A stretch of 64,000 nucleotides of DNA from Phycisphaerales bacterium (GTDB lineage: Bacteria; Planctomycetota; Phycisphaerae; Phycisphaerales; UBA1924): NCBI GenBank assembly GCA_040221175.1, contig JAVJVK010000004.1, positions 1,100,268-1,164,267 on the forward strand, given 5' to 3'. Below are positions 12,434 through 50,813 of this stretch, piece by piece. Each line of letters starts with the position of its first letter. Positions within the stretch are counted from its first letter, which is position 1. The position numbers and the translations under genes were made by a program. A model generated the notes under the pieces. That model had not been told where the DNA came from and searched no databases. It worked only from the letters and a program-made list of their open reading frames with translations.

Positions 12434-13117
12434 ATGCGTACGCATCGCTATCCGTCGCGACAGGCGGAACTCGTTGATTGGTCTCGCACCCATGCAGATA
12501 TCTGGAAGGGTGGCCAGGCCGGCGTTCCCGACATCGGGATTTCTCAGTTGATGGCCGACAATTTCGACCTCGCCGTTTCCGACGTCGAGGCGAAGCTGGC
12601 GGCCCAGGGGGCGGCGCTCAGCGCCGCTCGGGCGGCGACCGAAGACAAGGACGCCGCCCTGGACGAGATGCTGCGACAGCTCGGCAGCATCATGACCACC
12701 ATCGACGGCTACGGCCGCAACACCGACGACCCGGGCGTGTGGGTGCGGGCCCAGATTCCCGCGCCCAAGACCGGCGGCGAGCGGCCCGCGCCGCCCACGC
12801 CCGTGGTGCTGCCCACGCAGATCACCACCGACGGGTCGGTCGTCTTCAGCTTCGACGTCACCAGCGGCGGCGGAGCGCTCTACGAAGTCCAGCGGCAGAC
12901 GCTGGCCCTGGACGGCACCGAGGGGCCGTGGACGATCGTGGCGCTGATTAACGAGAAGCGCTTCGTCGACCCGGCCGTGCCCGTTGGCCTGCGCGCGGTG
13001 GACTACCGCGTGCGGGTGCGCATCAGCAACGGCCAGGCCAGCCCCTTCAGCACCAGCGCCCGGGCGAACTTCGGCAGCGCCGGGAGCCAGGGCGGGCCGC
13101 TGGCGCGGGTGGCGTGA
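12434..13117 (+). CDS. Fibronectin type III-like domain protein, unknown function
   Basis: 227 residues from an ATG that follows CGGAG by eight bases. The N-terminal ~100 residues are helical and polar (MRTHRYPSRQAELVDWSRTH, then a coiled-coil-like stretch VEAKLAAQGAALSAARAATE). The C-terminal ~100 residues form a predicted beta-sandwich with fibronectin III features (TTDGSVVFSFDVTSGG, YEVQRQTL, VDYRVRVRISNGQASPFS). There is no signal peptide or membrane helix. The helical-plus-Fn3 layout is seen in structural and phage-tail-like proteins, but nothing else here supports that. Two hairpins (13124-13156 and 13199-13231) follow. Confidence 0.65.
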   Translation: MRTHRYPSRQAELVDWSRTHADIWKGGQAGVPDIGISQLMADNFDLAVSDVEAKLAAQGAALSAARAATEDKDAALDEMLRQLGSIMTTIDGYGRNTDDPGVWVRAQIPAPKTGGERPAPPTPVVLPTQITTDGSVVFSFDVTSGGGALYEVQRQTLALDGTEGPWTIVALINEKRFVDPAVPVGLRAVDYRVRVRISNGQASPFSTSARANFGSAGSQGGPLARVA

Positions 13118-14205: not shown

Positions 14206-17200
14206 ATGCCCGCGCGCGCCCCGACCGAACGTACCCGCTGGACCGTCTCGCTCGGCCTGGCGTGCGCCGTGGCGCTGGGCCACCCCGCCGCGCAGGGCCA
14301 GCCGGTGGACGACCAGACCCGGGGCGTCCAGCTGGATGGGCTCCAGATCGACCCCCTGGCCATCACCGGCGAGGGCTTCGGGCCCGTACGGCTCCCCGTG
14401 GGCGGCGGCCAGGGGGCGGCGGTGCGGGCCATCGAGCTGGCCGGGCGGCGGGCGTGGACCTGGAGCGATGCGCCGCTGACGCCCGGCGTGACGCCCACGC
14501 GGCGGGTGCTGCTCGAGGGCGACGTGCGCGTGACCATCGGCACGCTCGAGCTGCGGGCCGACCGGCTGCACGGCTGGGTGCAATCGCTGGATGGCGCCGG
14601 CGGCGAGCAGTTCTACTTCCTGCTCGAAGAGGCCATCATGCCCACGAGCGCGCCCGGCGCTGGCATCGCCGGACCGCTGGTGCCCATCGAGGGCCGCCTG
14701 GCGCCCGGGGGCACGCTCGCGCTGTCGGCGATCGTGTCTCGCGAGGGAGCGCCCGGGGCCGAGGGACTGGATGCCGAAGCCCGCCGCGTGCCGCCCGCCC
14801 TGGTGCGCCGGCAGGCCCGCGCGGTGGCGGTGGCCGAGGCGGTCTTCGCCGACCGGCTGCGCGACGCGGTGGGCCTGGCGCTGCCCCGGGTGAGCGGCGA
14901 GCAATTGGCCGCCGAGGACCGGGCCCTGCGCGACGTGCTGCAGCTGGCCCGCCAGCGGCTGGGCGGCGGCCCGGTGCGCCCGCCGATCCTGCCGGGGCGC
15001 GGGCGGGTGAGCTTCTCGGCGGCGGGCATCGAGCAGGTGCGGCTGCACGAGGGAGACGGCGCCGACGGCCGCCCGCCCTACGCCGTGGTGATGCGCGGGC
15101 CGGTGACGATCCTGTTCGACGACGCGGTGGGCGGCCAGCGGGCGCAGCTGACCGCCCAGGACGCGGTGCTCTTCCACAAGGCCGACCTGGTGGGCGCGCC
15201 CCGACTGGACGCGGCCGACGTGATGGGCCTGTACCTGGAAGGCGCCGTGGTGGCCGATATCGAGCGCGTGCGCGGCGACGGCGGGCGGCAGGACGTCGAC
15301 CGCTACCGCGTGCGCTCGCCGAGGGTGTACTACGACCTGGCGGGCGACCGCGCGTTGCTGCTGGACGCGGTCTTCCGGGCCGAGCCGGCCGGCACGCCCA
15401 CGCCCATCTACCTGCGGGCGGTGGAGATCCGCCAGCGCTCGCTGGGCGAGATCGTGGCCGACGACGCGCGGATCACCACGACGGGATTCTTCCGCCCGCA
15501 CCTGGCCCTGGGCGCCAGCACGCTGACGCTGCGCATCGAGGATCGCCCGGGCGGCGAGGCGGCCGGCACGCGGATGATCGCCGATGCGCGGCACATCACG
15601 GCGCGGGCCATGGGCGTGCCGTTCCTCTACTGGCCCATCTACGTGGGCGATCCGTCGCGCATCCCGCTGCGCGACGTGGGGGTGGAGACCAGCGACCGCC
15701 ACGGCGAGGTGCTGCGGACCACCTGGGACGCCTTCGCGCTGGCGGGGGTCGAAGCGCCCGCGGGCGTGGACCTGGACCTGCTGATCGACGCGTACTTCCG
15801 GCGCGGGGCGGCGCTGGGCGGCGAGTTGCGATGGCAGGACCGCGCCGGCGGCAGCGGGAGCCTGTTCGTGTACAACCTCTTCAACGACACGGGGCGTGAC
15901 CTGCTGCCCACCGGCGCGCGCATCGACCGCGATGGCGAGAACCGGACCGTGGCGCTGCTTGAGCACCTGGGCCGGCTGGACGACAACTGGACCCTGCGGG
16001 CCGAGGGCTCGTGGTTCAGCGACGAAAACGTCGTGGCGACGTTCTTTCCGGAGATGACCTGGAGCCGGCGCGAGCCGGCCACCGGCGCCTCGCTGCAGCG
16101 CATCGACGAGCGCAGCATGCTGCTGCTGGGCATCAACGCGCAGACCAACGACTTCGTGGTGACCGACTACCAGCTGCGCGCCCGCGGCTATACGACCGAG
16201 CGCCTGCCCGAGCTGCGCTACGCCCGGCCGGGCGACGACCTGCTGCCCGACGCGGCCCCGGGGCTCTTGACCTATCGCAGCGACAGCCGCGTGGGCCAGC
16301 TGCGGCTGAGCTTCACCGAGCCCACGGCGGCCGAGCTTGGATTCCCATCGGTCTCGCGGGCCCAGGCGGCCCTGGGCATCAATCCCGGCCAGAGCCCGGG
16401 CGACCGGCTGCGGGCCCAGGGGCTGGACGAATCGGCCATCTTCCGCTTCGACACTTTGCACGAGCTGAGCGGCCAGATCGAGGCCGGCGTGCTGCGCATC
16501 CAGCCGTTCGCGACGGGGCGATTGACCGGCTACGACACCGACTTTGACGACTACGCGGCGGTGACGGGCGAGGATGCCGATGCGCTGGTCGCCCGCGGCG
16601 CCGTGGGGACGCGTCTGTCGACCCAGCTCACGCGCGTGTACAACGGCGTGGCGTCCGACGCGCTCGACCTGCACCGCCTGCGGCACGTCATCGAGCCCAA
16701 CGCGACGTTCTGGTACGGAGACTCGACCGTGGCCCAGGGGGCCATCCCCGTGTACGACGAGGACGTGGAGACCTTTGCGCAGGGGCCGGCGGTGCGCTTC
16801 GGCGTGGACCAGACCATCCAGACCATGCGCGGGTCGCTGGGCAGCTACGAGTCTGTCGACGTGCTGCGGCTGGGTACGCACCTGACCTTCGCCGGCGAGG
16901 ACCGCGTCAACGAGGATCGCACGCCGCGGTTCTTCGACGCCTATCCCGAGCGCAGCCAGTTTGGCGATGCGCTGGACGTGCAGGCCGTGTGGCGGCCGAC
17001 CGACGCGCTGGGCGTGACCGGGCAGTGGATCTATGACCTGGAGCAGGACCGCACTGCCGAGGGCGTGGCGGGTTTTTCCATCGAGCAGTGGCCCGACATG
17101 CGGCTGTTCGCCGAGCTTCGGCACCTGGGCTATAGCGACGACACGTACGTCAACGTCGGGAGCGACTACAAGCTGGGCGACCGCTACACCATCGGCGCGG

Positions 17201-42903: not shown

Positions 42904-43929
42904 TCAGCGCCGCACGCATTCCAACAGCCGCTCGCCCGCCGCCAGCCCGCTCAGGTAGGCGCCCTCGACACGTCCACCGTGGCACCAGTCTCCCGCAACT
43001 GCAAGCCGCGTTGTCGGGTCCAACAAGCAGCCACCCTCGACCTGTGAATGCGTGAGGGCGTACCGCCAGCGGTGTGCGGCGGCGTGCACGGGCGAAGGCA
43101 CTTGGATCCTCAATGCCTGCTCGAGCGCACGCAGCAAGGTCGTCACCACGTCTGCACGCTCGCGCTCGATGTTCGCTTGGCTCCACTGCGGCCCAGCATG
43201 CAGCACCCACCGCTCACCCCTCGGCCTTCCGGGCTTGCTCGAATCCCGCGCGATCCAGGCCAACGGCTGGTTCTCGATGTTTACGAACACGCCGTCGGCC
43301 TCGATCGGCAGCCGATGCTCGAACGCCGCCATCACCGCCCAGCACGGCTGCATCTCACAAGCCCTCGCCCGCTCGACAATGTCGGACACATCCCGTAGGA
43401 GGCTCGCCACCTGTGGCGCCGGCGTCGCGATCACCAACGCATCGAACTGCCTCGCCTGGCCGTCCGATGCGTGCACGACCCAGGCATCCGCAGATCGTTC
43501 GATGGATTCGACCGTACAGGAGAATCGCACGGGCACGTCCCGCGCCATCGCCGACACGATTGCGCTCATGCGCGGCGTCCCAACGTATCTGATCGGTCCA
43601 CCCTCCTTGGGTGTGACGCTGCCGGGCTCATCCACCGATGCAATCGTTCCCTGCCAGGGCCGGCAAGCCCCCGCAGCCATCCACTGCCGCACGCGCTCTT
43701 GGAATCGCTCGTCTCGGGCCGTGAAGTACTGAGCGCCATGATCGAAGGTGATGTCGCCCCCGCCGTGCCCTACCCGCCGCGTCGACGAGCGCCCACCCGC
43801 GCCCCGACCCTTATCCATGGCGTCAACCGTGCATCCCGCCTCCAAGAGACGATGGCCGGCAGCAAGGCCCGCCAATCCAGCTCCGATGACGCCCACCCGA
43901 GCCGTTCCACCTGATATCGCTTCAGCCAT
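42904..43929 (-). CDS. FAD-dependent oxidoreductase (renalase / amine-oxidase-like)
   Basis: 341 residues from ATG 43929; no strong ribosome site, and an upstream in-frame start exists. The Rossmann dinucleotide motif VGVIGAGLAGLAAG (GxGxxG at residues 16-21) is followed by DKGRGAGGRSSTRR, the FAD-binding GG[RK] block, and FDHGAQYFTARD. The C-terminal FAD motif is LAVAGDWCHGGRVEGAYLSG. The order and length match bacterial renalase-like proteins, which oxidise isomeric dihydronicotinamides; the amine-oxidase family is the alternative. Cytosolic. It lies just outside the left end of the tRNA-Val element. Confidence 0.85.
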   Translation of the reverse strand: MAEAISGGTARVGVIGAGLAGLAAGHRLLEAGCTVDAMDKGRGAGGRSSTRRVGHGGGDITFDHGAQYFTARDERFQERVRQWMAAGACRPWQGTIASVDEPGSVTPKEGGPIRYVGTPRMSAIVSAMARDVPVRFSCTVESIERSADAWVVHASDGQARQFDALVIATPAPQVASLLRDVSDIVERARACEMQPCWAVMAAFEHRLPIEADGVFVNIENQPLAWIARDSSKPGRPRGERWVLHAGPQWSQANIERERADVVTTLLRALEQALRIQVPSPVHAAAHRWRYALTHSQVEGGCLLDPTTRLAVAGDWCHGGRVEGAYLSGLAAGERLLECVRR

Positions 43930-44292
43930 GCGGCACTGTTGGCCGCTCGATGCGGCGATTGGTCTCGCTAGCGACAATCCCGAAGGCCGCCGCGAACGAA
44001 ACGAACCGAGCAGAGGCATGCCGACAAATAGGCGGGCGGGGACTCGAACCCCCCCACGATTCCCCGAGAAAAACGCACGATCGGCAGCAGGGTGGCGCAC
44101 AATCCGACGCAATCACCCCCGCCATGGCCGCCGTAGTGGGCTGGCTGGTGAGCATGCCCGAGGGCGTGGGTCGGGACTGAGGGCGGGCGCATCGCCCCTG
44201 ACCCCGCGCGGGCACACGGCCCCCTACCCCCTGGCGACACCACGGGCCTGTTCACTATTGTATATGCATTGTTCGCCAAAGTGTAGCCACGG
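43930..44292. other. Gene-free left boundary of the integrative element
   Basis: This gap contains the left att repeat (44029-44052), a small hairpin GGGCG-CAT-CGCCC at 44185-44197 downstream of the membrane-protein gene, and an AT-rich patch near 44250 (TATTGTATATGCATTG). I see no convincing reading frame in it. Confidence 0.6.
44029..44052 (-). repeat. Left attachment site (attL), tRNA-Val 3' fragment
   Basis: The 24 bases are identical to 49004-49027, that is, to the discriminator base, 3' acceptor strand and T-stem/loop of the tRNA-Val gene. Identity stops at 44053 (C where the tRNA has G), so only the 3' fragment is duplicated. Confidence 0.9.
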
Positions 44293-44715
44293 CTACGGAT
44301 TGAGCCCGCGCCCGAGGGCCGCCAAGATCAGCATGAGCCCGAAGCCGATCAGGAACACGAGCACGCTCGACAGGATGATGCCGATGGCCACGGCCCACAC
44401 CACCTTGCGATAGAGGGCGTCGAAATAAGCACTCTTGCGTTCGGTGAGCGCCCGCCGAATCTCGGCAATCTCGAAGGCGATGGCCCTAGACAACTTGCTA
44501 TTGACCTCGATGGCATCCTCAATGCGTCGGAGCCGATCATCGAGGGCCGCGTCGGCACCGGGCTGGCGCTTGTCGTCCACGGGCTCGACAGCCTCGACCG
44601 CCACGCCCATTCCATTGGCCACAGCCTGTGCCTCGTCCCGATCGGTCGCCTCGATGCGGTGCTCGACCTGGCGACCCGTCAGCTTATCCACGCCCCGCAC
44701 GATGAAGTCTGCCAT
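44293..44715 (-). CDS. Element-borne membrane-anchored small protein, unknown function
   Basis: 140 residues, start at 44715 (weak ribosome site). A small N-terminal domain (MADFIVRGVDKLTGRQVEHR, DRDEAQAVANGMGVAVEAVE) of ~50 residues precedes a charged coiled-coil-like segment (DAALDDRLRRIEDAIEVNSK) and one C-terminal membrane helix pair (VVWAVAIGIILSSVLVFLIG and FGLMLILAALG). The protein should sit in the inner membrane with the N-terminus in the cytosol. It is cargo of the tRNA-Val element; no homologue is recognised. Confidence 0.65.
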   Translation of the reverse strand: MADFIVRGVDKLTGRQVEHRIEATDRDEAQAVANGMGVAVEAVEPVDDKRQPGADAALDDRLRRIEDAIEVNSKLSRAIAFEIAEIRRALTERKSAYFDALYRKVVWAVAIGIILSSVLVFLIGFGLMLILAALGRGLNP

Positions 44716-44881
44716 GACGGATGATAACCAGCAAAACCGCAAAGGTCGGCAACGGGGGTAGACCTGCTGACATTGGGGGTACACTTCGGCGAGGGCTGGC
44801 GGATTCTTCCGTCACGAAGCCGGCAACCGCTGTCAGGCATGCAGCATCGCCCTGTCGGCCGCCCCAATCACAAGGAAGTGG

Positions 44882-45592
44882 TTGTTGCACATTTCGACTA
44901 ACCCCGATCAGAGCACCCGCGTTCTGTCTGACGCCCTGCGCACCATATCCGTCAGCCTGAACCCGTTCGTACTCGTCCAGCTCAACAAGTATCAGACAGG
45001 CAAGGCGGCACCACGCACACCGGAGGATCGGCGTGCGCACCACCTCATGCATGAGCTTGCCGCCTTGCCGCTACGAGAAGCACACGACAGCGTAGCTGTC
45101 GCTCTCCGCACCTGTTCCGGGATCGCAGCATCTTGCTTGGACGTAGAGGATCGGGAGATATTGTCGGAGTTTTTCAGCAAAGCGTTCCGGTTGCTCTCGG
45201 ACACCATCGTGCTAGTTGACACGACAAGCGATGCCTTAGACGTTCAACAGATCTCAACACTTGGCCAGCGCGCCGGCGTGCTCGACTTTCATCTACGTCT
45301 GAAGTATGGGCTGCAATCCCAAGGATCGTGTCCACCCGTGGAGGCTCCGATCGACACCATCTCCCGGCGGGACGCCACGTGGTTCAGGAACGCCACCGGC
45401 GACGACCACTTTCCGAGTAAGCTTCGGGTGGCGATTAGCCGGGGACACCTTCGCGACAGCAGGAAGATCGGCGGCTGCACGACTTGGCAACACTCGATCT
45501 CCGAAGTATGCCAACGATTTTCCGAGTACGAGGATGCCATCGAGGCCGCGCTTGAGGCCGACCGAAAGCGGCACACGATGCGCACGGCGTAA
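44882..45592 (+). CDS. Element-borne hypothetical protein
   Basis: 236 residues from TTG 44882 (an in-frame TTG follows at 44885); AAGGAAG lies just upstream. It is mixed alpha/beta with no signal peptide or membrane helix. Features: helical ALRTISVSLNPFVLVQLNKY and HHLMHELAALPLREAHDSVA, and a C-terminal SEYEDAIEAALEADRKR helix. No family is recognised. It is in the first part of the plus-strand gene set of the element, 123 bp before the HTH gene. Confidence 0.55.
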   Translation: MLHISTNPDQSTRVLSDALRTISVSLNPFVLVQLNKYQTGKAAPRTPEDRRAHHLMHELAALPLREAHDSVAVALRTCSGIAASCLDVEDREILSEFFSKAFRLLSDTIVLVDTTSDALDVQQISTLGQRAGVLDFHLRLKYGLQSQGSCPPVEAPIDTISRRDATWFRNATGDDHFPSKLRVAISRGHLRDSRKIGGCTTWQHSISEVCQRFSEYEDAIEAALEADRKRHTMRTA

Positions 45593-45625
45593 CGTCGCGC
45601 AACGTGGCGTAACACCGCGCAACAG
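45586..45625 (+). repeat. Two tandem 20-bp repeats before the HTH/ATPase operon
   Basis: Units 45586-45605 and 45606-45625 share GGCGTAAC, two variable bases, CGCGCAAC and two more bases (16 of 20 identical). They sit ~90 bp before the HTH gene and overlap the last codons of the preceding gene. They could be iterons or an operator; their role is inferred only from position. Confidence 0.5.
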
Positions 45626-45715
45626 ACCTCAGTGACGGCGCTTGCTCTTACCTGTTGACACGCAAGACTGCTCCGAGCCGGGCCGCAATGCCGCGTCCCG
45701 CAATGGAGCACGACC

Positions 45716-45919
45716 TTGCACACGACGACGCCGACAACCTCATCCTCGAAGCTGACCACCCGCGAACTCGGACAGGAATGGCGACTCTCGGAACGCACGA
45801 TCTTCGACCTGCGCACCAACCACGGACTCCCATTCGTGCGGATCGCCGGGAGCATCCGCTTCGACCGCGCCGCCGTCGAGGCTTGGGCCGCCGACCGCGC
45901 GGAAGGCGGTGCGGCATGA
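45716..45919 (+). CDS. Excisionase-like helix-turn-helix protein
   Basis: 67 residues from TTG 45716 with GGAG eight bases upstream. The whole protein is a winged-helix/MerR-like HTH of the AlpA/excisionase type: KLTTRELGQEWRLSERTIFD, then NHGLPFVRIAGSIRFDRAAV. Such proteins direct excision or activate element genes. The stop overlaps the start of the ATPase gene (ATGA), so the two are coupled. Confidence 0.8.
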   Translation: MHTTTPTTSSSKLTTRELGQEWRLSERTIFDLRTNHGLPFVRIAGSIRFDRAAVEAWAADRAEGGAA

Positions 45920-47610
45920 GATCAAAGAGGGAAAGCCGCCCCACGGCCGCCAAGCACACGGGGCAACATCGGACGCCGAATACTAGCGACCTACCCCCGC
46001 CTATCTCCCCCCCCCAAGGCGTTCCGCTGGCATCTTGGCTTGCCATCGGTGCAGAACAACACGGCAACGAATGGCGCACGCCCGAGCGCGACGCCACGGG
46101 CACCATCATCGGCACGCAACGCCGACTCCCCACGGGCCGCAAGGTCATGGTGGAGGGCAGCAGGCGCGGGCTCGTGTACGCCGATCCCCTGGCCGATGGC
46201 TACGGCGACATGCCCGACCTCCCGATATTCGTGGTCGAGGGCGCGACCGATACCGCTGCGGCCCATTCCTTGGCTCTGGTGGCCGTTGGGCGACCTTCGG
46301 CGACTGGCGGGGCCGATCACCTGGCCAATCTGCTGGCGGGCCGCTACGTGGCCGTGCTGGGCGAGAATGACAGGGGCGTAGGCCAGACCGCGCCGTACAC
46401 CATCGCCGACCGCCTGGCCGGGACTTGCGCCGGCGTGTGCGTGGTGTTTCCGCCGAAGGAACACAAAGACCTGCGGGCGTGGGTGAGCGCTGGCGCGACG
46501 GCCGACGACGTGCTGGGCATCCTGCGACACGTCGAGCCCGTTCCCACGCCCGAACCCCACGACACCGGCCGCGCCCGCCCCGTTGTGCTCAACATGGCCG
46601 ACGTGGAGGCAACGCCAATCTCGTGGCTTTGGACGGGCCGCGTGGCGGTTGGCCGGATCACCATAATGGCCGGGCACCCCGGATGCGGCAAGAGCATGGT
46701 GACCGCCGATATGGCCGCCCGCGTCAGCACGGGCACCGCCTGGCCGGATGGCATGCCATGCCCGCGTGGCCGCGTGCTGCTACTGAGCGCCGAGGATGAT
46801 CCCTCCGACACCATCAAGCCCCGGCTCGTGGCCGCTGGTGCCGACTGCGCCCGCGTGGACGTGCTGACCGCCTCGACCTTCCGAGACAAGGAACGGGTAG
46901 TCACCTTGGCCGACGTGGACATTATCGAGGCCGCGCTCCGCCAGCACGACGACTACCGCTTGCTCGTGGTCGATCCGATCGGGTCATACATGGGCGCTGG
47001 CGTCGATTCGCACAAGGACAACGAAACGCGGGCGGTGCTGGCACCCATTGCCGCCATCGCCAGACCATTGGGGGTGGCGGTGCTCGTGGTGGCGCACACC
47101 CGCAAGGGCCGATCGGACCGCGCCGACGATGCGGTGCTCGGCTCTCGTGCGTTTACTGGGCTGGCGCGGTGCGTACTCCACCTGGCCGAAGACCCCTACG
47201 ACAAGGCCCGCAAGTTGCTGCTGCCGGGCAAGAACAACCTGGCCAAGCCGCCCGCCGGGCTGGCGTTCACTATCGAGGGCGACCCGCCCGCGTGCTCGTG
47301 GAGCCCCGAGCCCGTGCACATGACCGCCGATGACCTACTCGACCTGAGCAACAACGCGGGCGCGTCGAGCGCCCACGACGAGGCGGAGGCATGGCTAATC
47401 GATGTGCTGAGCGCGGGGCCCACTTCCGCCAAGAACGTGCAGGAACGGGCCAAGGCCGATGGCATTGCAATGCGCACACTCCACCGGGCAAAGCGAACGC
47501 TCAACGTCCAGAGCACCCGGCTCGGCTACAACGAAGGCGCTGCATGGGTTTGGACATTGCCAAGCGCAGAACTAGGCAACCTTGGCAACCTTCGACCTGA
47601 GAGCGACTGA
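45916..47610 (+). CDS. Toprim/RecA-like replication ATPase (primase-helicase/RepA type)
   Basis: 564 residues. The N-terminal half holds a Toprim-like domain (FVVEGATDTAAAHSLALVAV, GGADHLANLL, VAVLGENDRG), where the second acidic box is E-N-D. The C-terminal half is a RecA-like ATPase with Walker A GHPGCGKSM and Walker B LLVVDPIGSYMG, like RepA/KaiC-type replication ATPases of plasmids and phages. The C-terminal ~60 residues look like a small helical domain. In the element it probably replicates the excised circle or helps excision. It follows the HTH gene by a 4-bp overlap. Confidence 0.82.
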   Translation: MRSKRESRPTAAKHTGQHRTPNTSDLPPPISPPQGVPLASWLAIGAEQHGNEWRTPERDATGTIIGTQRRLPTGRKVMVEGSRRGLVYADPLADGYGDMPDLPIFVVEGATDTAAAHSLALVAVGRPSATGGADHLANLLAGRYVAVLGENDRGVGQTAPYTIADRLAGTCAGVCVVFPPKEHKDLRAWVSAGATADDVLGILRHVEPVPTPEPHDTGRARPVVLNMADVEATPISWLWTGRVAVGRITIMAGHPGCGKSMVTADMAARVSTGTAWPDGMPCPRGRVLLLSAEDDPSDTIKPRLVAAGADCARVDVLTASTFRDKERVVTLADVDIIEAALRQHDDYRLLVVDPIGSYMGAGVDSHKDNETRAVLAPIAAIARPLGVAVLVVAHTRKGRSDRADDAVLGSRAFTGLARCVLHLAEDPYDKARKLLLPGKNNLAKPPAGLAFTIEGDPPACSWSPEPVHMTADDLLDLSNNAGASSAHDEAEAWLIDVLSAGPTSAKNVQERAKADGIAMRTLHRAKRTLNVQSTRLGYNEGAAWVWTLPSAELGNLGNLRPESD

Positions 47611-47678
47611 CGGCCGCCCAACATCGCCACCACCGACCAAGGTTGCCAACATTGCCAACCGGCGCGCTTGGCAACCTT
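47574..47678 (+). repeat. Cluster of TTGGCAACCTT repeats upstream of the integrase
   Basis: TTGGCAACCTT occurs at 47582-47592 and 47668-47678, and its exact reverse complement AAGGTTGCCAA at 47639-47649. Partial copies (GGCAACCTT at 47575, ATTGCCAACC at 47651) flank them. The sites straddle the end of the ATPase gene and the gap before the integrase. They fit recombinase arm sites, an operator or iterons. Confidence 0.7.
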
Positions 47679-47739
47679 CACCTCAAGAACACGACACGAT
47701 GCGCCCGATCATGGCGTATCGTCAATTGGAGACTTGACC

Positions 47740-49044
47740 ATGGCATCAATCACCACCGACAAGCGCGGCAACCGCCGACTCCAATTCGTGGACGGCAACG
47801 GCATCCGCCAGACCGTCCGGCTCGGCAAGCTCGACGCCAAGGCGGCCCAGACCATCCGCACCCACGCCGAAGCGCTATTGAGCGCCAAGCTGAGCGGTTC
47901 ATCCCCAGCCCGTGCGTCGGCTCTGTGGGCGTCCGAGTTGGGCGAGAAGCTGCACGACCGCCTGGCCCGTGTCGGGCTCGTGGAGCCACGCACGCCCCCG
48001 GAATCGAACACCCTGCACGAGTTGGTCGAGCGGTTCATCGACTCCACCACCGTCGCGCCCACCACGACGATGGCGTACCGCCAGACCGCCAATAGCCTCA
48101 TCGAATACTTCGGCGACGACCACGGCGTGCGCACGATCACCGCCGAGGATGCATCGTTGTGGCGACGGGCGCTCGCCGAGGCCGGATACGCCAAGGCCAC
48201 GCAAGCGAAGCGGGTGTACGTTGCCAAGCTGATCTTCAAGCGGGCGCTCTCGTGGGGGCTCGTGGACGCCAACCCGTTCGCCGACCTCAAGCCCGGCTCG
48301 CAATCCAACCCCGATCGCACGTACTACGTCACCGTCGAGGATGTCGACAAGATCATCGACGCTTGCCCCGATGCCCGATGGCGTGCCATCGTCGGGCTCT
48401 GCCGGTTCGCCGGGCTCCGATGCCCCTCCGAGTTGGTCGGGCTTACGTGGGCCGACGTAGACCTCGTGGAGCGTCGGCTCGTGGTGCGTTCACCGAAGAC
48501 CGCCCACCACGAGGGCCATGCTGTCCGGCTCGTGCCCATCGCGCCCAGGCTGGCCCCGTTGCTCGAAGACCTGTACGAACTCGCCCACGCCGACGAGCCC
48601 CAACTGTTCCCCACGCTGCGCGGCCCGTCGAACCTGCGCACGACGATGCACAAGATCATCGCCCGCGCTGGGCTCACCCCCTGGCCCCGGTTGTTCCAGA
48701 ACATGCGCGCTTCATGCGCCACCGATTGGGCGAGCGAGTTTCCCAACCACGACGCCGCCTCGTGGCTGGGCCATTCGCCCATGATCGCGGCGCAGCACTA
48801 CCTCAAGCCGCGCGACGAGCACTTCCGCAAGGCCGCCGGACTTGGGGGTGGCGCTCAAAGCGACGCACGGGTGGCGCAAAAAGCGACGCAGAGCATCGCG
48901 GCAGATTCTGGCACCGAACCGAAGCGCACGCCGCAAACCCTTGGCGTCGCGGACTTTCTGCCGCAAGACGCCGAAGGCTGCAACGGTTCGCATTCCGGTC
49001 TAGTAGGCGGGCGGGGACTCGAACCCCGGACCCTTCGCGTGTAA
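47740..49044 (+). CDS. Tyrosine recombinase/integrase of the tRNA-Val element
   Basis: 434 residues from ATG 47740 (TGGAG upstream). An Arm/SAM-like N-terminal domain is followed by the catalytic domain: AGLRCPSELVGLTW (Arg I), RSPKTAHH (Lys), NMRASCATDW (box II Arg), LGHSPMIAAQHYLK (box III His and nucleophile Tyr). The box-II HxxR His is replaced by Gln (QNMR), as in a number of planctomycete integrases. The last ~14 residues (GGRGLEPRTLRV) are read from the tRNA-Val gene itself. It sits next to the tRNA, as usual for the attachment site it recognises. Confidence 0.9.
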   Translation: MASITTDKRGNRRLQFVDGNGIRQTVRLGKLDAKAAQTIRTHAEALLSAKLSGSSPARASALWASELGEKLHDRLARVGLVEPRTPPESNTLHELVERFIDSTTVAPTTTMAYRQTANSLIEYFGDDHGVRTITAEDASLWRRALAEAGYAKATQAKRVYVAKLIFKRALSWGLVDANPFADLKPGSQSNPDRTYYVTVEDVDKIIDACPDARWRAIVGLCRFAGLRCPSELVGLTWADVDLVERRLVVRSPKTAHHEGHAVRLVPIAPRLAPLLEDLYELAHADEPQLFPTLRGPSNLRTTMHKIIARAGLTPWPRLFQNMRASCATDWASEFPNHDAASWLGHSPMIAAQHYLKPRDEHFRKAAGLGGGAQSDARVAQKATQSIAADSGTEPKRTPQTLGVADFLPQDAEGCNGSHSGLVGGRGLEPRTLRV

Positions 49045-49077
49045 GGCGAATGCTCTAGCCAACTGAGCTACCCGCCC
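49004..49077 (-). tRNA. tRNA-Val (anticodon UAC)
   Basis: 74 nt. The acceptor arm GGGCGGG pairs with CCCGCCT (one G-U), the D-arm starts GCTCAGTTGG, the anticodon stem TTCGC/GCGAA holds the loop CTTACAC (anticodon TAC), and the T-arm is CGGGG-TTCGAGT-CCCCG. CCA is not encoded. The 3' 24 nt is duplicated at 44029, marking the element's insertion site; the tRNA itself is intact. Confidence 0.95.
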
Positions 49078-49103: not shown

Positions 49104-50813
49104 CTACCACGGCGGCGTGTCGTCGTCGGGCTCGAGGTACTCGGCCTCGTCGGGGCGTCCGTGGTCCACCCGCTCGTCGAAGGGGCGGTTGTCCTGGGCC
49201 TTGTCGGCGGTGCTGGGCCGGTGGCCGAAGGCCGACCCGCCGCCCATGGCCGGTGCGTGAGGGCTGGTGCCAGCGTCGACCTTGGGCTCGAAGCTGCCCA
49301 CGGGCTCGTCCTTGGCCCACGTGTCGTTGCGCGCGTAGCCGGCGCGGTTCTTGAACCGCGTCGTGTGGTTGTCCCACACCAGCTTCACGATGCCGGTCGG
49401 ACCGTTTCGCTGCTTGGCGATGATCAGCTCGGCCTCGTTGACACGGTCCTCGTTCTCCTCCATCCAGGCCGGGTCGCTCAGGTGGTAGTACGCCTCGCGG
49501 TGCAGCAGCAGCACGACGTCGGCGTCCTGCTCGATGCTGCCCGACTCGCGCAGGTCGCTCATGCGTGGGCGGTTGCCCTCGCGCTGCTCGCTGCCGCGGT
49601 TGAGCTGGGCCAGGCACACCACGGGAAGCTCCAATTCGCGTGCCATGGCCTTGATGCCCCGGCTGATCGTGCTGACCTCCACCTGCCGGCTCTCGCGCCC
49701 CGCGCCCGGGGCGGTCAACAACTGCAAATAGTCCACCACCACGCAGCGGATGCCGAAACGCTGCTTCATGCGGCGTGCGCGTGCACGCAGGGCCGTCACG
49801 CTCAGGGCCGGTGAGTCATCGATATACAATGGCGCCCGCTCGAGCGTCTCGCACGCCGGGCGGATGCGGTTGACCAACTCATCCTGGCTGAACTGGCCGG
49901 TTCGCAGCTTGTGGCTGTCCACGCCCGAGTAGGCACTGATCAGGCGCTGCACCAGGCTGCTCTTGCTCATTTCCAGGCTGAACACGCCCACCGGCACGCG
50001 CTCGTCGCCCGCGGGTTCGAAGGGCGTGGCGCCGCCCATCGCGATCTGCTCGGCCAGGTTCAACGCAAGGGCGGTCTTGCCCATCGAGGGACGGGCGGCG
50101 ATGATGATCATCTCGCCGTCCTGCAAGCCGCTGAGAGGTTCGTCCAGGTCGGTAAAGCCCGTCTTGAGCCCCGTCGTCGCGCCCGCGTCGCGGTCGGCGA
50201 TGCGCTCGTACTCGGCCCGCAGCAGCTCCTCGAGCTTCTGGATGTCGGCCGACTGGTCGTCGTCGGCGATCTCGAAGATGCTCTGCTCGGCACGATCGAT
50301 GAGCTGGCGGGCCTCTTCGGGCTCGTCCTGGCCCGCGTGCATCGCCTCGTGCACGATCTGGTTGGCCGCGGCGATCAGCTTGCGCAGCCGGCTCTTGGTC
50401 TGCACCAGCCTGGCGTACAGCCCGGCGTTGTTGGGGGTGCTGACCGCCTCGGCCAGGCTGGCCAGGTAGGCCGCCCCGCCGATGGCCTCCAACTCGTTGC
50501 GCTCGCGGAGGCGGTCGGCCACGACGTTCAGGTCGGCCTGGGGCTCGCGCTCGTAGACCTCCTTCAGCACGCGGAACACCGTCGCGTTGCTCTGGCGGTA
50601 GAAGTCCTCGGGCGTAGACACCAGCGGCAGGACGTCGGCCAGGGTGTAGGGGTCGAGGATGATCGAGCCCAGCAGCGCCATCTCGGCCTCGGGCGCGTGC
50701 GGCGGCAGCTTGTCGTATACCCGGCTCAGGTCGATCGCCGGCGTGCCGCGGTCCTTGCCGGCCCTGCGGTGGTCCCCATTTCCGTGCAGGTTTTCCGATC
50801 CGTTCGCGTCCAT
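49104..50813 (-). CDS. dnaB: Replicative DNA helicase DnaB
   Basis: 569 residues. The N-terminal helical domain begins PHAPEAEMALLGSIILDP; the RecA-like core carries Walker A ARPSMGKTAL, VFSLEMSKSSLVQRLI, GIRCVVVDYLQLL (Walker B) and LAQLNRGSEQREGNRP with the arginine finger region. A C-terminal tail of ~90 residues after the core (VDAGTSPHAPAMGGGSA, EYLEPDDDTPPW) is longer than in E. coli DnaB (471 aa) and low in complexity. It unwinds DNA at the fork as a hexamer. It is divergent from pdxH across 42 bp. Confidence 0.95.
   Translation of the reverse strand: MDANGSENLHGNGDHRRAGKDRGTPAIDLSRVYDKLPPHAPEAEMALLGSIILDPYTLADVLPLVSTPEDFYRQSNATVFRVLKEVYEREPQADLNVVADRLRERNELEAIGGAAYLASLAEAVSTPNNAGLYARLVQTKSRLRKLIAAANQIVHEAMHAGQDEPEEARQLIDRAEQSIFEIADDDQSADIQKLEELLRAEYERIADRDAGATTGLKTGFTDLDEPLSGLQDGEMIIIAARPSMGKTALALNLAEQIAMGGATPFEPAGDERVPVGVFSLEMSKSSLVQRLISAYSGVDSHKLRTGQFSQDELVNRIRPACETLERAPLYIDDSPALSVTALRARARRMKQRFGIRCVVVDYLQLLTAPGAGRESRQVEVSTISRGIKAMARELELPVVCLAQLNRGSEQREGNRPRMSDLRESGSIEQDADVVLLLHREAYYHLSDPAWMEENEDRVNEAELIIAKQRNGPTGIVKLVWDNHTTRFKNRAGYARNDTWAKDEPVGSFEPKVDAGTSPHAPAMGGGSAFGHRPSTADKAQDNRPFDERVDHGRPDEAEYLEPDDDTPPW

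Follow-up and report, generated by a model that had tools for sequence, protein, structure and literature searches.

A compact integrative element at tRNA-Val in a Phycisphaerales genome, with an integrase gene that appears to span its attachment site

The 64,000-nt window analysed in the present work, which is part of contig JAVJVK010000004.1 in the 3.44-Mb, 20-contig assembly of a Phycisphaerales bacterium (genome G000), contains a compact integrative element, called E1 below, in the 3' end of a tRNA-Val gene. A GC-type dockerin match that falls below its cut-off also points to a probable planctomycete host. Judging from its sequence, the integrase gene of E1 spans the attachment site of the circular form (attP), and integration appears to exchange the C-terminal tail of the enzyme for residues encoded antisense to the tRNA, the tail DNA being left at the far end of the element. 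The explanation proposed for E1 as a whole, to which we assign a probability of roughly 0.6, is that of a compact tRNA-Val 3'-end element whose attP-spanning integrase would allow the form of the DNA to set the direction of recombination, and which would be transferred by a helper phage.

Element boundaries and the integrase frame across attP

The features on which this explanation depends are the following.

44029-44052: left attachment site (att) copy, an isolated tRNA-Val 3' fragment (perfect 24-nt direct repeat)
49004-49027: right att copy, within the intact tRNA-Val (repeat and tRNA call)
49003-49077, minus strand: tRNA-Val (tac), the integration target (ARAGORN)
47740-49044, plus strand: P0005, tyrosine integrase, 434 residues as integrated (Phage_integrase 5.2e-11, phrog_1 6.4e-42)
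44053-44180, plus strand: circle-only 3' end of the integrase gene (tail codons 44055-44177, stop codon 44178-44180, in the circle reading)

An earlier reading of the window, made from the sequence only, had reported a perfect 24-nt repeat that brackets five genes in tRNA-Val, and this repeat is indeed present, with a spacing of 4975 that gives an element of 4,975 bp. It links the sole tRNA called in the window to the isolated fragment; among the 18 exact direct-repeat pairs of at least 20 nt in the window, no other touches the tRNA, and 16 of the remaining 17 start within the first 18 kb (coding repeats, by eye). The open reading frame (ORF) of the integrase terminates inside the tRNA gene, with its last residues and stop codon supplied by the antisense strand of the tRNA. 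When the two ends of the element are joined in silico, the frame reads through att and onward into the far end, where it gains a C-terminal tail, so that the predicted protein has 471 residues in the circle versus 434 in the integrated form. The circle reading holds in all five elements of the genus that have both att copies and an intact integrase. The Phage_integrase domain (residues 197-360) lies whole within the integrated ORF. The sequence-only reading was right that the left att copy is an isolated tRNA fragment, but the sequence adjoining it is the circle-only integrase end, and a missing end of this kind, by marking the far boundary, helps to delimit such elements; that reading also correctly described an integrative element that has a replication module but lacks transfer genes, and it overlooked that the integrase gene crosses attP.

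The tail was evaluated across a wider set of elements. A related integrase is present at E <= 1e-40 in 87 of the 163 host-family genomes searched, and the 49 sources considered comprised 40 loci (L213-L252) picked by hand on score and contig room, E1 together with its sister elements E2-E6 from the same genus, genome G077, and loci L048 and L051. To be eligible, a source needed a tRNA where the 3' end of the integrase gene lies and a repeat measuring 14 nt or more. Of the 49, 26 were used; G077 (frame-broken integrase) and L246 (a 1978-base self-match artefact) were left out although they satisfied this rule, and the remaining 21 lacked either such a tRNA or a repeat of this length. These 26 elements, which target tRNA-Val, -Phe, -Met, -Tyr, -Lys, -Ile and -Glu, are not independent: they represent 16 genera, with six from the genus of the window and five from one other genus. 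Scored against leave-one-out profiles, the integrase frame was the best of the six frames in all 26, at 9.6 to 89.6 bits (34.6 bits for E1), and in 26 of 27 when G077 was included. Tails scored above 14 bits in 25 of the 26 elements, against none of 418 random in-element segments (maximum 9.8 bits), the element scores coming from leave-one-out profiles and the segment scores from a profile of all 26 tails. Outside the family, 20 loci yielded nine usable att pairs (11 were unusable), and in six of these nine the tail continues the integrase frame (E 4e-28 to 4e-5).

Full-length forms of the enzyme are encoded by metagenomic relatives. An alignment query of IMG/VR returned 44 loci with this integrase type, and two of them are apparently circular: L141, of 7,355 bp with a terminal repeat of 69 bp, and L142, of 7,437 bp with one of 123 bp. 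Both encode a 505-residue integrase, and in L142 the gene crosses the contig ends. The tail profile matched L142, L147, L150 and L151, the tail being part of the integrase ORF in L147 and L150/L151; it also matched L164, but there the reading frame differs from that of the partial integrase. The tail of L141 was recognised by alignment with L142 (60.6% over 137 residues). A tRNA adjoins the integrase genes of L143, L153 and L154, whose products end in tRNA-type residues; the L160 integrase has an ending of the same kind, with no tRNA found there. By eye, L159 has a similar integrase end.

Several of these results count against a conserved tail encoded across attP. Three of the nine loci outside the family show no tail (their att calls are 15-17 nt), the frame-broken integrase of G077 does not enter one, the tail of L219 scores 9.6 bits and so falls inside the random range, and the tail profile missed L141 at E <= 0.01. 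The proportion of non-synonymous differences (pN) exceeds that of synonymous differences (pS) in three of 26 tail pairs, and over the 41 tail codons compared between E1 and E3 pS is 0.31 and pN 0.30, with no signal of purifying selection in this pair.

The role of the tail and its DNA

The tail DNA also contains repeats that could serve the enzyme as binding sites.

44090-44111, plus strand: arm-type repeat on the tail side, candidate integrase arm site (repeat family D3)
48846-48867 and 48869-48890, plus strand: two arm-type repeats on the integrase side (repeat family D3)

Repeats of about 18 bp, of the GGCGCAGAATCCGGCGCA type with variants, occur on both sides of att, at about 128-160 bp from it towards the integrase and at 35-52 bp towards the tail. 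Arm-type integrase sites are expected at such positions flanking att, and the repeats are candidates for this role. In 23 of the 26 elements, none of 20 codon shuffles scores as well as the best 18-mer that the two sides of att have in common.

It may therefore be asked whether the tail DNA is kept solely as a DNA site, that is, as an attP arm with integrase-binding repeats whose encoded peptide is a by-product. A single fixed consensus 18-mer, with up to 4 mismatches, matches the tail side in 16 of the 26 elements and gives two minus-strand matches in all 26; the repeats encoding the conserved peptide GAESGA stand at similar distances on the integrase side too; and of the 23 elements that exceed their shuffles, 16 are equalled by no more than three of the other 25 tail sides. 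All of these observations suit a DNA site, as do the near-equal pS and pN of E1 and E3. Beyond the repeat, however, most family elements outside the genus of the window carry by eye a conserved part of the DPELAAVVAAWPDLPPAIRAGI type, and the linkers that precede this part vary in length yet keep the frame (again by eye). Changes in the tail codons are distributed over the three codon positions as 492/459/630, and pS exceeds pN in 23 of 26 pairs, the pairs having been chosen for at least 50% amino acid identity. In addition, the conserved part of the tail is predicted to form two helices (466-479 and 482-501) in a model of the L141 integrase (predicted template modelling score 0.56). Per-residue confidence (predicted local distance difference test, pLDDT) is 77-88 for the blocks covering 471-500, 58 for 461-470 and below 50 for the preceding linker at 384-463, within which att is expected by comparison with integrated relatives; the body of the model matches the lambda and Tn1549 integrases. 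A role of the tail DNA as a site alone is on balance improbable.

Instead of setting the direction of recombination, a peptide that is maintained might act in some other way, for example through the stability of the integrase or through contact with the replication protein or a host factor. The direction-setting role rests on sequence and a structural model, and an account of mycobacteriophages (PMC9262239) offers a parallel in which a C-terminal tag lost on integration controls protein stability; against a parallel of this kind, the five genus tails end in -GRD, -PAT, -ARA, -PHA and -TRR, unlike the LAA-type tag described in the same source. Such a different role is considered rather doubtful, although it deserves to be taken seriously.

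In the mechanism proposed here, the long integrase made from the circle would favour integration, and the tail-less enzyme made from the integrated element would excise only with the HTH_17 protein, which would act as excisionase; the form of the DNA, circle or integrated, would in this way set the direction of recombination. The direct repeats on either side of att would serve as integrase arm sites. The excised circle would begin replication through the Toprim-RecA protein at iterons around the stop codon of its own gene, and transfer between cells would occur with the aid of a helper, most likely by phage packaging as in minimal satellites. The function of the tail, the mode of replication and the route of transfer are the parts of this scheme that we infer from the sequence. 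If the tail does matter, the scheme yields a model, open to direct experiment, for what prevents integration from being reversed.

Sister elements, replication and transfer

The remaining genes of E1, its chromosomal flanks and a candidate origin are listed here.

44293-44715, minus strand: P0001, 140 residues, membrane-type, divergent from the helix-turn-helix (HTH) gene (copies in genus genomes, alignment)
44882-45592, plus strand: P0002, a 236-residue ORFan, TTG start assumed (no family match)
45716-45919, plus strand: P0003, 67 residues, HTH_17, likely excisionase, TTG start assumed (HTH_17 8e-8; phrog_66)
45916-47610, plus strand: P0004, 564 residues, Toprim and RecA-like replicative helicase with a C-terminal winged-helix-like region (AAA_25 6.8e-36)
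47557-47674: iteron-like TTGGCAACC repeats across the P0004 stop codon, candidate origin (inverted repeat I1)
42904-43929, minus strand: left chromosomal flank, FAD-dependent oxidoreductase-like gene (weak NCBIfam matches; synteny with G078)
49104-50813, minus strand: right chromosomal flank, dnaB-like replicative helicase gene, named by eye (ORF)

P0003 matches HTH_17 (PF12728) and, at 1e-6, the phrog_66 group of excisionases and regulators, and neither P0001 nor P0002 has a match above the curated cut-off in Pfam or NCBIfam. The sequence-only reading found no capsid, conjugation or transposase genes, and the family-library scans agree in that no such family is the main match of any of the five proteins; PADLOC gave weak matches only. 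That reading also described two novel cargo genes, which holds for the ORFan P0002 and fails for P0001, a core gene of the element family of the genus: six copies occur in five of the seven genus genomes, and the other 156 family genomes give just four weak N-terminal matches. The C-terminal part of P0002 recurs weakly in five other family genomes, and its last 70 or so residues (window 45340-45580) recur at 28-43% identity in larger ORFs of the L054 and L056 elements, so this region is possibly a shared domain.

The tRNA-Val locus is polymorphic across the seven genomes of the genus. G074 has a different element of 15 kb with the same att (E3, L041), whose integrase is 92% identical to that of E1, and an integrase remnant lies outside its left att. 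G077 has an interval of 11 kb between att copies, with the frame-broken integrase. An empty site in relatives had been suggested as a check, and in G078 a distance of about 290 bp separates the syntenic oxidoreductase flank from a tRNA-Val that has a single 24-nt copy; an 88-bp integrase scar is also present there, and tRNA-Val of G079 has a similar scar. The same genes are thus not found at this site in every relative, since G078 has the single-copy site and G074 the different element. No similarity to the element was detected around tRNA-Val in G075, and no tRNA was found in the 4.8-kb stretch examined in G076. DNA similar to the right flank is present in all seven genomes; the dnaB-like gene adjoins tRNA-Val in the window, and about 2 kb of other ORFs intervene in G074 and G078 (L041, L040). 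Integrase 3'-end remnants without the rest of an element stand beside tRNA-Val or the left att at L040 2293-2380, L042 about 12872-12964 and L041 1929-2091.

Such elements evidently decay, because the scars in G078 and G079 lie at the same tRNA and the integrase of G077 is broken, which raises the question of whether E1 is itself a decayed remnant that is no longer mobile. With all five frames of E1 open and its two att copies identical, this is highly improbable.

Other elements of the genus use other target genes. E2 (L195, 6950-12856; same genome as E1, at about 982.9-988.9 kb of its contig) lies in tRNA-Val(cac), with a 19-nt att and a length of 5,888 bp, and has DUF3987 in place of AAA_25; E4 (L047, G075) lies in tRNA-Met (23-nt att, 4,564 bp), E5 (L196, G076) in tRNA-Phe (25-nt att, 11,205 bp) and E6 (L046, G079) also in tRNA-Phe, its far end not having been found. 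Protein identities between these sister elements are discordant from gene to gene. The integrases pair by tRNA target (E1-E3 92%, E5-E6 88%, all other pairs 44-57%), P0001 identity peaks between the two elements of one genome (84%, E1 and E2), and E1 and E6 share an HTH protein at 93% and an integrase at 44%. The replication protein is AAA_25-like in E1, E4 and E6 and DUF3987 in E2, E3 and E5. Over the 26 bounded elements, which range from 4.6 to 15.5 kb, HTH is found in 21, an AAA_25-like protein in eight, a DUF3987-like protein in ten and P0001 in five. Replication modules are swapped, and cargo varies, among related elements: the G074 element carries a COX1-FixO (cbb3-type cytochrome oxidase) gene and a metal P-type ATPase (L041 2608-11533), the G076 element a DNA polymerase III alpha-type gene (L196 10236-13670, inside the 11.2-kb tRNA-Phe element) and the L054 element an MmeI-type enzyme. 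By eye, the L041 cargo further includes an Rrf2-like regulator and a CcoG-like gene, and the L056 element contains a Y-family-polymerase-like ORF at 15356-16654.

A broader reading can tentatively be built on these patterns, at what we would put somewhat below even odds: there may be a widespread bacterial integrase class in which attP lies between the catalytic domain and a helical tail and in which the protein reports circle versus chromosome and so sets the direction. As part of the same reading, and at the same strength, the class would serve both satellites and phages, with replication modules and cargo exchanged around a fixed integrase-att unit.

Concerning replication, the P0004 model (mean pLDDT 79) is closest in fold to T7 gp4 and Twinkle (E 1e-13, with low overall TM-scores of 0.26-0.34), and the sole sequence match in the PDB is RepA 1g8y (E 5.5e-5), a protein of RSF1010. 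Local repeat density is maximal at the 3' end of the replication gene in six of 13 AAA loci, the window included. It is not so in the other seven AAA loci or in any of three DUF3987 loci, and within the 64 kb equal or higher repeat scores occur elsewhere, mostly in the first 14 kb, 44 windows of 220 bp (the same or other ones) reaching a score of 85; these counts speak against a specific origin at this position. Iterons were accordingly rejected as a general mark of these elements and are kept for E1 as a candidate only, because they come first in six of 13 AAA loci and in none of three DUF3987 loci. By eye, a similar inverted repeat stands in the last 110 nt or so of three DUF3987 genes (L041, L195, L196), possibly as another type of origin.

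The circular relatives bear on the proposed transfer by a helper phage. L141 encodes HNH (PF01844 1.2e-14), terminase small subunit (TerS; PF05119 1.3e-22) and prohead protease (PF04586 2.9e-39) proteins, together with two HTH_17 proteins and a DnaB/AAA_25 helicase, and L142 has relatives of its TerS, protease, HTH protein and helicase. No large terminase, portal or capsid gene was found among eight L141 ORFs searched, a subset of its ORFs. The gene sets of L141 and L142 are phage-satellite-like, and since TerS and prohead protease occur in both together with the full-length enzyme, this integrase also belongs to satellite-like elements. The satellite-type gene set earlier ascribed to E1 gains support from these relatives and from the DUF3987 sisters, although E1 itself has no packaging family among its five proteins in the library scans. 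This lack is one point against transfer by packaging; another is that prohead protease, tried as a packaging mark in host genomes and rejected, occurs in nine of the 163 family genomes, in none of the genus, and never on a contig listed with a related integrase. Matches to phrog_2, presumably the large terminase subunit, occur in all seven genus genomes (L206, L207, L208 and four others) but also in 11 of 14 controls, and for that reason were not taken to indicate a helper prophage.

Conjugation offers another route, in which E1 would be an integrative mobilizable element with an unrecognised origin of transfer (oriT), moved by the relaxase and mating apparatus of another element. The lack of a packaging gene in E1 is consistent with this, an integrase, excisionase and replication protein would also suit such an element, and relaxase PF03432 is present in two of the seven genus genomes (G074, G077). 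That family, the sole relaxase family searched there, is absent from G000, however; none of the five proteins matched a relaxase family in the library scans; an oriT was likewise not identified, though no profile search was aimed at one; and the closest circular relatives carry phage packaging genes. Mobilization of this kind is accordingly judged unlikely.

Single-protein scans of IMG/VR with P0004 and P0005 returned no relative, and an alignment query returned 261 helicase relatives, of which 80 were kept. A scan of genome contigs gave one distant locus, and in tblastn searches of 125 loci (L060-L184) with the five window proteins only L073 was matched by two of them. P0005 had no match in phage records; the matches of P0004, to 96 phage and 14 plasmid records, did not reach 60% identity in any case.

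Comparison with known systems

E1 resembles the PICMI family (PMC10803314) in its size class of about 5-6 kb, tyrosine integrase, HTH_17/AlpA-type regulator, replication protein, direct-repeat boundary and lack of capsid-remodelling genes; it differs in having Toprim-AAA_25 and not DUF3987/DUF5906, in lying in tRNA-Val and not beside fis, and in its host, which is not of the Vibrionaceae. When the search model of that family is applied, the integrase (PF00589, 5.2e-11) and AlpA-type regulator (PF05930 or PF12728; here PF12728, 8e-8) are present in E1, and the primase family, DUF3987 (PF13148) or DUF5906 (PF19263), is absent from E1 and present in E2, E3 and E5, which thus carry the three-gene core of the model (integrase, HTH and DUF3987). 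Since E1 has neither that primase family nor the fis-adjacent position, by the family's own model it is not a PICMI, and it appears from this analysis to work like a minimal phage satellite. Among phage satellites with partial packaging modules (PMC11389934), L141 and L142 compare through their TerS and prohead protease, both of which E1 lacks. Nor is E1 an integrative and conjugative element, as far as the library scans of its five proteins extend, which found no relaxase or mating-pair apparatus. These compact islands of a little-studied group are tied by their relatives to phage satellites.

With respect to the position of attP, a literature search that reached few subscription papers or preprints recognised no precedent for a bacterial integrase gene spanning it. 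In mycobacteriophages with integration-dependent immunity (PMC9262239), attP lies in the repressor gene and a C-terminal degradation tag is lost on integration; attP within a coding gene, overlap with a tRNA target and an altered protein C-terminus are shared with E1, whereas the gene there encodes a repressor with a degradation tag, and in E1 an integrase with a predicted helical tail. The nearest att-in-integrase precedent found is that of the archaeal suicidal integrases (SSV1, pTN3, pT26-2), in which integration divides the gene into int(N) and int(C), described as inactive; a 2021 review (PMC8371274) holds that only archaea have integrases whose own gene contains the target site. As in the SSV type, attP of E1 lies inside the integrase gene and integration parts the gene, but the catalytic domain of E1 stays whole and the C-terminal tail alone is exchanged; Phage_integr_3 (PF16795) is absent from the matches of the E1 integrase at E <= 0.1, PF00589 being found instead. 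This bacterial family appears to perform a gentler version of the archaeal targeting of an integrase's own gene, in which the enzyme is left whole and its tail is swapped.

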